Origin: Sanguibacter keddieii DSM 10542
GTDB lineage: Bacteria > Actinomycetota > Actinomycetes > Actinomycetales > Cellulomonadaceae
DNA length: 64,000 nucleotides
Reading direction: 5' to 3'
Assembly (NCBI RefSeq): GCF_000024925.1
Contig: NC_013521.1
Location: 496,001-560,000, forward strand
This document shows positions 25,603 through 29,271 of this stretch, piece by piece. The translations under genes and the position numbers were made by a program. The notes beneath the pieces are model-generated. The model saw nothing but the letters and a program-made list of their open reading frames with translations, was not told the DNA's origin and did no database searches. Each line of letters opens with the position of its first letter. The stretch's first letter is position 1.

Positions 25603-25708
25603 AGCACGCACCGGCCGAGGCCAGCGTGACGAGAGTACCGGACGATCCACCGTGCGGCCGAATCGGCCCGGATTTACCTCCGGGCGGGCGCCTGGGTTAA
25701 CCTGGGGG

Positions 25709-25800
25709 CTGACCCCTCGTGCGGCGTCATCTCACTGAACTCCCCCAGGGCCGGAAGGCAGCAAGGGCAGGTGAGCTCTGATGGGTGTGCGAGGGGTCTT
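25709..25800 (+). ncRNA. ffs: Signal recognition particle RNA (small bacterial 4.5S type)
   Basis: Contains the conserved Ffh-binding hairpin with GGAAGGCAGCAAGGGCAGG (25753-25771) and the CTCCCCCAGGGCC strand before it. Ends GACCCCTC (25711-25718) and GAGGGGTC (25791-25798) pair to close the molecule. A TAACCT -10 (25698-25703), with TTACCT 18 bp upstream, places the start near 25709. In many actinobacteria ffs lies next to dnaX; here a methionine transporter sits between them. Confidence 0.93.
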
Positions 25801-25814
25801 CTGCATGCCCGGCC

Positions 25815-25840: not shown

Positions 25841-25934
25841 TTCATCTCAGCAGGCGACCCTCTGGCTGCTCGCATCATGAGATTTCCGGGTCGGGGATTG
25901 GTGCTCGCCGCGATCGCGCCCCCATCATGGAGCC

Positions 25935-26036
25935 ATGTTCACGTCGACCCACGCCGCCGTCACCCGGGCCAGCGCACCGCGCCGCCCGGTGATGTGCTGT
26001 CGTGCCCGCTCGATGCCCGGTGGGTGCTGTCGCTGA
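25935..26036 (+). CDS. Cys/Met-rich leader peptide upstream of metQ
   Basis: A 33-codon frame whose last 14 residues are MCCRARSMPGGCCR, with the two Cys-Cys-Arg blocks encoded TGC TGT CGT and TGC TGT CGC, the second directly before the stop. This looks like an amino-acid-sensing leader peptide for the methionine importer 248 nt downstream. CATCAT (25923-25928) ends 6 nt before the ATG, with TTGGTG 19 bp upstream, so the leader may be leaderless. A shorter start at 25989 or 25992 is possible. Sulfur-amino-acid leader peptides with Cys runs are known in actinobacteria; assignment here is by inspection. Confidence 0.65.
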   Translation: MFTSTHAAVTRASAPRRPVMCCRARSMPGGCCR

Positions 26037-26070
26037 CCTGGCGACCCACCCGGACCGGGGACGACCCCGG
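26017..26070 (+). promoter_or_regulatory. Candidate attenuator hairpins after the Cys/Met leader peptide
   Basis: CCGGTGGGT inside the leader frame (26017-26025) can pair with ACCCACCCGG (26044-26053), across the stop codon. The adjacent CCGGGG-ACGA-CCCCGG (26055-26070) forms a compact second hairpin. A ribosome stalled on the terminal Cys codons would cover the first stem. A further 8-bp stem (26248-26255 with 26259-26266) lies just before the metQ ribosome-binding site. I found no SAM-riboswitch signature in 25841-26283. Confidence 0.45.
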
Positions 26071-26283
26071 CAACACGCCGTGAACCACGGCACCCTCTGC
26101 TCTCCTCGTCAGCCTCCTCGCAGGTGATGACGGCCCCGCCCCGCGGAGCCAGCCGACGACGACCACGCACCGGTCCCAGGGCTCGACGCCCGGACCACGC
26201 GCCCCCACACCACCCAGCACACGCTCGCAGCCACGGCTGCACCTCGATGCGCGCCGACGGCGCGCACCACCGGAAGGACACCC

Positions 26284-27189
26284 ATGTCTCGCTCCACCCG
26301 TACGGCCCGCACCCTCGGCGCCGCCAGCCTCGTCGCAGCTCTTACCCTGGGCCTCGCCGCGTGCTCCTCGGACGACGCCTCGTCCGACGCCGCCAAGGGC
26401 GACGAGTCCAACCCCGTGGTCATCGGTGTCGTCAACGCCGCAGCCGACGACCAGTGGTCCGTCTTCGAGGAGCAGGCCGAGGCCGAGGGCATCTACGTCG
26501 AGATCAAGGACCTCGGCAGCTACGACCTCCCCAACGCCGCGCTCACCTCCGAGGAGCTGGACCTCAACCAGTTCCAGCACCTGCAGTACCTCGCGGAGTA
26601 CAACACCAACACCGGTGAGGACCTCACGCCCATCGGCGCGACGGCCGTCTACCCGCTGAGCCTCTACTCCTCGAAGTACACCTCGGTCGACGAGATCCCG
26701 GCCGGCGCCGAGATCGCCATCCCGAACGACCCGACCAACCTGGCCCGCGCGCTCCTCGTTCTGCAGGACGCCGGGCTGCTCGAGCTCAAGGACGGCGGCT
26801 CCTCCGTGTCCACCGAGCTCGACGTGCTGCCGTCGTCGACCGTCACCGTGACCCCGGTCGACGCCACGCAGACCGCGGTGAACCTCGACAGCATCGACGG
26901 TGCGGTCGTCAACAACGACTTCATCAAGGACGCCGGCCTCGCCGCCGAGGACGCGCTCTACCAGGACTCGGCCGAGGCCGAGGGCGCCCGCCCCTACATC
27001 AACGTGTGGGTCTCCCGCGCGGCTGACAAGGACGACGAGACCTTCCTCAAGCTCGTCGAGATCTCGCACTCCCCCGAGGTCGAGGCAGCGCTCCTCGAGG
27101 CGTCCGGCGACAGCGCCGTGATCGCCGACCAGGACGGCCCGACGCTCCAGGGCTACCTCGACGAGATCCAGGCGAACCTCCAGGGCTGA
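26284..27189 (+). CDS. metQ: Methionine ABC transporter, substrate-binding lipoprotein
   Basis: Binds methionine outside the membrane (NlpA family), 301 residues. Lipobox LGLAAC precedes a short Ser/Asp linker. Family motifs are IKDLGSYDLPNAALTSEELDLNQFQHL, PIGATAVYPLSLYS, IAIPNDPTNLARAL and VNNDFIKDAGL. GGAAGGA lies upstream of the ATG. Two tandem strong hairpins follow its stop, before metN, suggesting that more binding protein than transporter is made. Confidence 0.93.
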   Translation: MSRSTRTARTLGAASLVAALTLGLAACSSDDASSDAAKGDESNPVVIGVVNAAADDQWSVFEEQAEAEGIYVEIKDLGSYDLPNAALTSEELDLNQFQHLQYLAEYNTNTGEDLTPIGATAVYPLSLYSSKYTSVDEIPAGAEIAIPNDPTNLARALLVLQDAGLLELKDGGSSVSTELDVLPSSTVTVTPVDATQTAVNLDSIDGAVVNNDFIKDAGLAAEDALYQDSAEAEGARPYINVWVSRAADKDDETFLKLVEISHSPEVEAALLEASGDSAVIADQDGPTLQGYLDEIQANLQG

Positions 27190-27352: not shown

Positions 27353-28615
27353 ATGAGCGCCAGCCACACCGCCATGGTGAGGTTCACCGACGTCACCAAG
27401 ACCTTCAAGGGGAGCTCGGGACCGTTCAACGCCGTCGACGGCGTGACCCTCGACATCCGCAAGGGCGAGATCTTCGGCGTGATCGGCTACTCCGGTGCCG
27501 GCAAGTCCACGCTCGTGCGCCTCATCAACGCCCTCGAGACCGTCTCCGGCGGCTCGGTCGAGGTCGACGGCACCGACCTCACCGGCCGGTCGGAGACCGA
27601 GCTGCGCAAGGTCCGCGCCGGCATCGGCATGATCTTCCAGCAGTTCAACCTGCTCTCGTCACGGACCGTCGCGGGGAACATCGCCTACCCGCTCAAGGTG
27701 GCGGGCTGGGACCGGGCGCGGCGCGCGGCACGCGTGGCCGAGCTGCTCGAGTTCGTCGGGATCGCCGACAAGGCCAAGCAGTACCCGAACAAGCTCTCGG
27801 GCGGGCAGAAGCAGCGCGTGGGCATCGCCCGTGCGCTCGCCACCAACCCGAGCATCCTGCTGGCCGACGAGGCGACGAGCGCCCTCGACCCCGAGACCAC
27901 CCAGGACGTCCTCGCGCTGCTCAAGCGCGTCAACCGCGACCTCGGCGTCACCGTCGTGGTGATCACCCACGAGATGGACGTCGTGAAGTCGATCTGCGAC
28001 CGCGTGGCCGTCATGGAGCACGGCAAGGTCGTCGAGTCGGGCGACGTGTACCCCGTCTTCGCCGACCCGCAGCACCGCGCGACCCGCCGGTTCGTCGGGG
28101 CGACCGTCAAGGACCGCCCGAGCGCGAAGGTGCTCGAGCGTCTGCGGCACCGCCACCCGCACCGACTCGTCACGGTCGCCGTGCACGAGGACGGCTCCTC
28201 GGGAGGGCGCATCACCGACGTGCTGCGCGACAACGACGTGCAGGGCACCGTCGTGTTCGGCGGCATCTCCGAGGTCACCGAGCGGCCCTTCGGGTCGCTC
28301 ACCTGGGAGCTGGCCGGCGACGACGCCGCGATCGAGCGCTGCGTCGCGACGCTGCGCAGCTACACGGACGTCACCGACCTCGGGACGGCGGCGAACCCGC
28401 TCGTCGACCCACGGGCCGAGGACGCCGCGGCGGCGCCGGACCCGGGGGTCGACGGCTCCACGGGCACGGCTGAGCCTGGCCTCGCTGCCAGCGCCCCCTA
28501 CCCGGTGCCCGGCTCGACCCTCGCAGGCAGCGCGGAGGGCGGGACGCTCGCTCCCGGAGTGCCGAGGTTCGACAAGCCCCGGACCGACGGCTCCACCGAG
28601 GGAGGTGCGCGATGA
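27353..28615 (+). CDS. metN: Methionine ABC transporter ATPase
   Basis: ATPase of the methionine importer, 420 residues. Walker A GYSGAGKST, signature LSGGQKQRVGIA, Walker B ILLADEATSALD and switch VVITHEMDV are present. A C-terminal NIL/ACT-type domain (about 265-345, SGGRITDVLRDNDVQGTVVFGG) senses methionine in relatives and shuts transport. About 70 further residues are Ala/Pro/Gly-rich and exceed the ~340-residue E. coli protein. ATG at 27353 has CGGAG 7 nt upstream; the frame is open farther but low in family similarity. It overlaps metI by 4 nt. Confidence 0.93.
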   Translation: MSASHTAMVRFTDVTKTFKGSSGPFNAVDGVTLDIRKGEIFGVIGYSGAGKSTLVRLINALETVSGGSVEVDGTDLTGRSETELRKVRAGIGMIFQQFNLLSSRTVAGNIAYPLKVAGWDRARRAARVAELLEFVGIADKAKQYPNKLSGGQKQRVGIARALATNPSILLADEATSALDPETTQDVLALLKRVNRDLGVTVVVITHEMDVVKSICDRVAVMEHGKVVESGDVYPVFADPQHRATRRFVGATVKDRPSAKVLERLRHRHPHRLVTVAVHEDGSSGGRITDVLRDNDVQGTVVFGGISEVTERPFGSLTWELAGDDAAIERCVATLRSYTDVTDLGTAANPLVDPRAEDAAAAPDPGVDGSTGTAEPGLAASAPYPVPGSTLAGSAEGGTLAPGVPRFDKPRTDGSTEGGAR

Positions 28616-29271
28616 CCGACTGGTCCCAGCTCGGCCCCCGCCTGTGGACGGCGCTCGGCGAGACCATGCAGATGGTCTCGGCCACGATGCTGCTCGGCGG
28701 GTTCGTCGGCCTCCTCATCGGCCTCGGCCTCTACACGACGCGCAAGGGCAACCTGCTGTCCAACCCCGTCGTGTTCAACGTCCTCAACGTGATCGTCAAC
28801 TTCGTGCGGCCGATCCCGTTCATCATCTTCGTCACGGCCATCCGCCCGGTCACCTACGAGGTGACCGGCGCGACCATCGGCGTCCAGGCAGTCATCCTGC
28901 CGATGACCCTCATGGCGGCGGTCGCCTTCGCGCGCATCGTCGAGCAGAACCTCGTCGCCCTCGACCCGGGCGTCGTCGAGGCGGCCCGCGCGATGGGTGC
29001 CTCACGGTTCCGGATCATCTGGTCGGTGCTCATCCCCGAGGCGCTCGCCCCACTGATCCTCGGCTACACCTTCCTGTTCGTCGGCGTCATCGACATGTCG
29101 GCGATGGCCGGTGCGATCGGTGGTGGAGGTCTCGGAGACTTCGCGCTGCGCTTCGGGTACCAGAAGTTCAACGACGAGGTCACCTGGGTGGCGGTGCTCG
29201 TCATCGTGGCGATCGTCCAGGTCGCCCAGTACCTGGGCAACTGGCTGGCCAAGAAGGCCCTGCACCGCTGA
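28612..29271 (+). CDS. metI: Methionine ABC transporter permease
   Basis: A 219-residue membrane subunit with five helices, the MetI length. The EAA loop is EAARAMGASRFRIIWSVLIPEALAPLILG, contacting MetN. The N-terminus TDWSQLGPRLWTALGETMQMV is typical. It starts in the ATGA overlap with metN. A 13-bp terminator follows. Confidence 0.94.
   Translation: MTDWSQLGPRLWTALGETMQMVSATMLLGGFVGLLIGLGLYTTRKGNLLSNPVVFNVLNVIVNFVRPIPFIIFVTAIRPVTYEVTGATIGVQAVILPMTLMAAVAFARIVEQNLVALDPGVVEAARAMGASRFRIIWSVLIPEALAPLILGYTFLFVGVIDMSAMAGAIGGGGLGDFALRFGYQKFNDEVTWVAVLVIVAIVQVAQYLGNWLAKKALHR

Follow-up and report, generated by a model that had tools for sequence, protein, structure and literature searches.

A conserved, predicted leaderless uORF rich in Met and Cys codons precedes the metQNI methionine importer in Sanguibacter keddieii and related genera

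The metQNI operon of Sanguibacter keddieii DSM 10542 is preceded by a short upstream ORF (uORF) rich in methionine and cysteine codons. We propose, with a probability of about 0.7, that this uORF is leaderless and acts in cis as a leader on which ribosomes sense both Cys and Met, damping expression of the importer when both amino acids are plentiful. At the level of sequence, such a leader is supported by the ORF itself, the leaderless architecture of its promoter, its conservation, and a joint enrichment of Met and Cys; from these features we infer that the uORF is translated, that ribosomes would stall within it, and in which direction the importer would respond. The window analysed here comprises 64,000 nucleotides of a genome represented by a single contig of 4,253,413 bases, whose nearest named relatives are Sanguibacter species.

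The leader ORF, MFTSTHAAVTRASAPRRPVMCCRARSMPGGCCR, occupies positions 25935–26036 of the window on the forward strand and encodes 33 amino acids from ATG to a TGA stop codon. This is exactly the frame quoted in the earlier note, which had placed a leader peptide ahead of the importer, and its product ends VMCC-R-ARS-MPGG-CC-R. The first block of interest, Met20-Cys21-Cys22 (ATG TGC TGT, 25992–26000, forward strand), is a candidate sensor, and most orthologs, with about 33 codons, have MCC or MC near codon 20. The second block, Met27-Pro-Gly-Gly-Cys-Cys-Arg (26013–26033, forward strand), is represented in most other genera by CGA-ATG-TGY (Arg-Met-Cys). Genes around the leader ORF contain 0.5% Cys and 1.1% Met. 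The paired Cys doublets, which the earlier note had considered very unlikely to arise by chance, are well beyond this Cys background and recur in metQ leaders of the family. The leader peptide had no profile match in NCBIfam or Pfam.

Upstream of the leader ORF, a tRNA-Ser gene (reverse strand) and the SRP RNA (25708–25804, forward strand) were identified; downstream, 247 nt separate the end of the leader ORF from metQ, the first gene of the operon. The metQ gene (26284–27189, forward strand) encodes an NlpA-family substrate-binding lipoprotein (PF03180, 4.6e-60; TIGR00363) resembling E. coli MetQ (4yah) and other solved NlpA-type lipoproteins. It is followed on the same strand by metN (27353–28615), an ATPase with a C-terminal NIL domain (TIGR02314, 1.1e-94; PF09383), and metI (28612–29271), a permease (PRK10782, 1.4e-44), and by protein family metQNI is assigned as a methionine importer. 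The Shine-Dalgarno region of metQ (CGGAAGGAC) lies at 26271–26279 (forward strand), with GGAAGGA kept in most leaders.

A promoter was predicted at 25898–25928 (forward strand) from the sequence and the ortholog profile. It consists of TTGGTG (25898–25903) and a CATCAT -10-like hexamer (25923–25928), which ends 6 nt ahead of the leader ATG, with TTGGTG 19 nt further 5'; the start codon and promoter of leader ORFs were chosen with a simple score. In the genus-weighted profile of 103 orthologous leaders, the preferred bases relative to the ATG were T at -36 (72%), G at -34 (76%), A at -11 (66%), T at -7 (74%), and C at -1 (97%). The metQ leader ORF is therefore strongly predicted to be leaderless, starting at the 5' end of the transcript, a prediction also favoured by the excess of leaderless ORFs over shuffles in the blind search described below. 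Leaderless ORFs do not require a Shine-Dalgarno sequence. Upstream of the promoter, a GAGATTTcCGG-like box was also observed (25878–25889), which in many genera lies 45–60 nt 5' of the uORF ATG and in genus g8 occurs with the palindrome-like GTCCACATGATGGAC; this box is a possible repressor operator.

To assess conservation, the complete region upstream of metQ was collected at 149 loci of the family and the order, plus one contig-end fragment. A search blind to the peptide identified 66 leaderless short ORFs in 65 of the 109 metQ loci of the GTDB family, with 0.35 ORFs in dinucleotide shuffles and 3 on the antisense strand as controls. In the last 20 codons of these 66 ORFs, Cys reached 17.1% and Met 11.2%. 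Met-Cys was present in 56 and Cys-Cys in 47; neither pair occurred in the 3 antisense ORFs. Catalogued uORFs contained an internal Met in 103/103 cases, Cys in 98/103, Met-Cys in 86/103, and Arg-Met in 92/103, although CGAATG or MCC formed part of the selection for this catalogue, which biases its Met counts and leaves the 66-ORF blind test as the unbiased one. The uORF is conserved in about 20 related genera, and a genome-wide pattern search for a leaderless ORF with CGAATG returned matches mostly at metQ leaders. All five Sanguibacter metQ leaders carry MCC or TCC, then, after 8–14 codons, MPGGCCR or MPSGCCR and the stop; the S. inulinus leader has a 9-nt in-frame insertion and one more Met. 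The order's other families mostly lack the uORF, the exception being one distant sister genus (f13g48), whose uORFs of 13–21 amino acids end in a C-terminal Arg-Met and lack Cys.

A search around PAPS-reductase genes in 20 relatives provided a comparison within the family, since ten sulfur operons of the sulfite-reductase type were found to start with leaderless, TGT-rich poly-Cys uORFs (L168, L169, L171, L173, L174, L179, L180, L181, L183, and L186). The uORF MTTARSTQEATSRRALVTCAPSSTCCCCC is an example from a Sanguibacter cys operon. A long ORF follows these uORFs at about 80–160 nt and was a sulfite reductase in the one scanned. The last 20 codons of the cys-operon uORFs contain 22.5% Cys and 4% Met, of which the Cys figure is biased, as these uORFs were picked for Cys content, and the Met figure is not; Met-Cys occurs in 1 of the 10 and CGAATG in none. 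The codon content of a leader thus tracks the downstream pathway, the cys-operon leaders being poly-Cys with little Met, a pattern that favours the Met codons of the metQ leader being read as such.

This comparison bears directly on whether the metQ leader is a pure cysteine attenuator following the mycobacterial poly-Cys logic, with its Met codons incidental. Conserved Cys doublets, the same predicted leaderless design, and the poly-Cys uORFs before sulfite reductase in the same family all fit such a device. We nevertheless consider it unlikely, given that Met accounts for 11% of the last 20 codons in metQ uORFs vs 4% in cys-operon leaders, that Met precedes Cys in most of the blind-found ORFs (56/66), and that the sister genus retains Arg-Met without any Cys. 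The earlier note had proposed attenuation by the supply of Cys-tRNA, with Cys/Met-tRNA in brackets. A conserved sulfur-amino-acid leader was indeed recovered across the roughly 20 genera, but Cys supply alone is not its best reading; the bracketed alternative fits better because Met is present in every catalogued uORF and Cys in nearly all, while cys-operon leaders have little Met. The earlier note thus caught the Cys half and overlooked both the leaderless placement of the promoter and the equally conserved Met.

Codon usage within the uORFs was then considered. In 7 of 19 invariant Cys columns the codon varied while Cys stayed constant, which points to selection on the amino acid; in the remaining uORF codons, GC3 (0.87) exceeded GC2 (0.79). 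TGT made up 104 of 334 Cys codons in the uORFs, whereas window genes use it for 1 of 14 and a set of 30 metQ genes for 0 of 30. The Arg codon before Met was CGA in 96 of 104 cases, compared with 11 of 478 Arg codons elsewhere in the same uORFs, and CGA accounts for about 5% of Arg codons in window genes. CGA and TGT are wobble-read codons that are probably read slowly, and their use may sensitise the ribosome. It was also observed that CGA-ATG is fixed at the nucleotide level in the metQ uORFs of family f1 despite the rarity of CGA; this fixation could reflect slow reading of the codon pair or else a signal in the RNA. Sanguibacter leaders lack this CGA, with TCG, CTC, or GTC preceding the ATG, and keep Met and Cys.

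The strong preference for CGA before Met, and its retention as CGA-ATG in the Cys-free sister genus, would suit a methionine or arrest-type sensor in which the CGA-AUG pair slows the ribosome and Cys is a later addition. This reading appears improbable, since the loss of CGA from Sanguibacter with Met and Cys intact means that CGA-AUG cannot be the entire mechanism there. For dual sensing, we give roughly even odds to the more specific proposal that one uORF senses the charging of both Cys and Met through slow codons (CGA before AUG, and TGT) and controls the importer family-wide. A weak point of dual sensing in general is that one Met codon alone, the situation in the sister genus, would make a poor sensor.

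Two hairpins, which the earlier note had described as overlapping and following the stop codon, were located in the leader RNA. Hairpin P1 (GGGTG..GTCGC / GCGAC..CACCC, 26022–26051, forward strand) forms in each of the five Sanguibacter leaders; its loop holds the stop codon, and the final Cys codons belong to its 5' arm. Its fold z-score is -2.7 in Sanguibacter, and the fold is strong also in near relatives; a stop hairpin as a general feature was rejected, as z is near 0 in g8, g3, and f13g48. Hairpin P2 (CCGGGG ACGA CCCCGG, 26055–26070, forward strand) is not followed by a U-tract, and across Sanguibacter and three related genera its stem is preserved by compensatory changes. The stem variants among the sequences listed were CCGGGG/CCCCGG, ATCGGGA/TCCCGGT, ATCGGG/CCCGAT, ATCGAG/CTCGAT, and ATCGGA/TCCGAT, judged by eye because the MAFFT alignment misplaced the arms of P1 and P2. 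A guanidine-II (mini-ykkC) hit at 26030–26069 (19.4 bits) was discarded as probably due to chance, being below the cut-off and losing the ACGA loop in S. suarezii.

Between the uORF and metQ, a second near-invariant block (CTCGCCACG..GCTGATGGCCGTGGCCCGCC) was observed 70–140 nt before metQ in genera g3, g7, g8, g12, and g21, at loci including L016, L065, L088, and L045; genera g13, g16, and g18 read CATGGCTGGTAAGCCATTCAACGTTCC at this place. No Rfam match to this block was obtained among the loci scanned.

An RNA aptamer for SAM, Met, or tRNA, with the ORF secondary to a conserved RNA block, would draw on the nucleotide-level conservation of CGAATG, on the downstream block CTCGCC..GCTGATGGCC conserved in five genera, and on hairpins P1 and P2. 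Such an aptamer seems a poor explanation: at nearly every uORF-bearing locus a short ORF reads CGAATG in frame as CGA-ATG, Cys codons vary synonymously, hairpin stability is not general, and no Rfam match was found in the window or in nine relatives. The earlier note's view that a SAM riboswitch is absent holds, as the Rfam scan of the window gave only the SRP RNA and tRNA-Ser as real matches, without any leader match, and SAM riboswitch covariance models matched neither in the window nor in nine relatives. That the peptide is instead a small protein with a function of its own, such as binding metals or thiols, is very improbable: it is Cys-rich, and short translated proteins are common in actinobacteria (PMC4633059), but its N-terminal half is unconserved between genera, its length and Cys arrangement are variable, and it always lies just 5' of metQ.

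In the dual Cys/Met leader that we favour, RNA polymerase would start at or beside the ATG and ribosomes would load on the 5'-terminal AUG. How fast they cross the Met-Cys(-Cys) codons would then report the levels of charged Cys-tRNA and Met-tRNA. A shortage of either would stall the ribosome in codons 20–22, allowing the leader RNA to refold and the importer to be expressed; when both are plentiful, the ribosome would reach the stop inside P1 and expression would be damped. P1 takes up the terminal Cys pair in its 5' arm, from which we infer that the first block (MCC, codons 20–22) is the likelier sensor in Sanguibacter.

For the output step, we favour Rho-dependent termination in the C-rich leader, at slightly less than an even chance; translational attenuation and a hairpin terminator lacking a U-tract are considered less likely. 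The C-rich, G-poor leader, a possible Rho-loading region (26040–26270, forward strand), was indicated by (C-G)/(C+G) skew, which in Sanguibacter leaders is 0.26 downstream vs -0.07 upstream of the uORF, and across leaders 0.25 downstream and -0.05 upstream. The leader is also C-rich at metQ without a catalogued uORF (skew 0.15, 46 regions). No U-tract terminator was found in Sanguibacter leaders, where the longest T run averages 1.6. In folding calculations, the computed accessibility of the Shine-Dalgarno sequence did not change with ribosome position, which gives no sign of its masking being switched by the ribosome. With a ribosome placed at the stop, P2 was gained in G000 (the S. keddieii genome) and not in G003, G005, or G002; ribosome-dependent refolding around the stop thus appeared in single genomes and was inconsistent among relatives. 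The sensing step is held more confidently than the output because no general switch could be demonstrated.

Elsewhere, SAM or T-box RNAs or repressors usually control methionine genes, and to our knowledge no methionine-codon attenuator has been described. The literature searched, which covered subscription journals little, did not describe a Met/Cys leader for metQ. The closest known systems are the leaderless Cys-responsive uORFs of mycobacteria (Canestrari et al. 2020, doi 10.1111/mmi.14498, as cited in PMC9094748, PMC9031893, and PMC13236596), where leaderless uORFs have also been described by Shell et al. 2015 (PMC4633059). The metQ leader resembles the mycobacterial poly-Cys uORFs, as the citing papers describe them, in being a short, predicted leaderless ORF with a Cys cluster near its 3' end, a sulfur-gene target, and no U-tract terminator. 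It differs in having Met-Cys instead of Cys runs, in the CGA-ATG conserved in most genera, in its methionine importer target, and in belonging to a different order of Actinomycetota. Contiguous Cys codons near the ORF end and a sulfur-gene target, two of the marks of a leaderless poly-Cys uORF attenuator, were both found here, with a Met gene as the target.

Seliverstov et al. 2005 (PMC1262725) described candidate Cys leader peptides ahead of cys operons and of cbs; they proposed Rho for the Mycobacterium Cys leaders and, at methionine operons, did not find upstream RNA structures that were conserved. The metQ leader shares with those leaders Cys codons near the stop and the lack of an obvious terminator, whereas its metQ target and Met codons are new. 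It also resembles the trp, his, and leu attenuators and the Corynebacterium ilvB uORF (PMC10272879) in its peptide rich in the regulated amino acid and its hairpins around the stop. Unlike classical attenuators, it is predicted to be leaderless, is proposed to sense two amino acids, and has no intrinsic terminator that was recognised.

Regarding physiology, no match to PF01507 (PAPS/APS reductase) was found in the genomes of S. keddieii or S. inulinus, whereas four other Sanguibacter genomes contain one. Sulfate assimilation has probably been lost in these two species, which probably rely on sulfur in organic or reduced form; four full-length PLP genes of Cys/Met metabolism were also found. 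The uORF as a marker of lost sulfate assimilation was rejected, as most uORF-bearing relatives keep PAPS reductase, and the uORF is older than the loss. In the absence of PAPS/APS reductase, imported methionine may also supply cysteine, which would make a joint Cys/Met readout sensible. If the proposal is true, a leader reading both sulfur amino acids would constitute a compact two-input sensor, for which the Cys-only leaders on cys operons of the same family offer a natural comparison, making the codon-to-signal logic directly testable.
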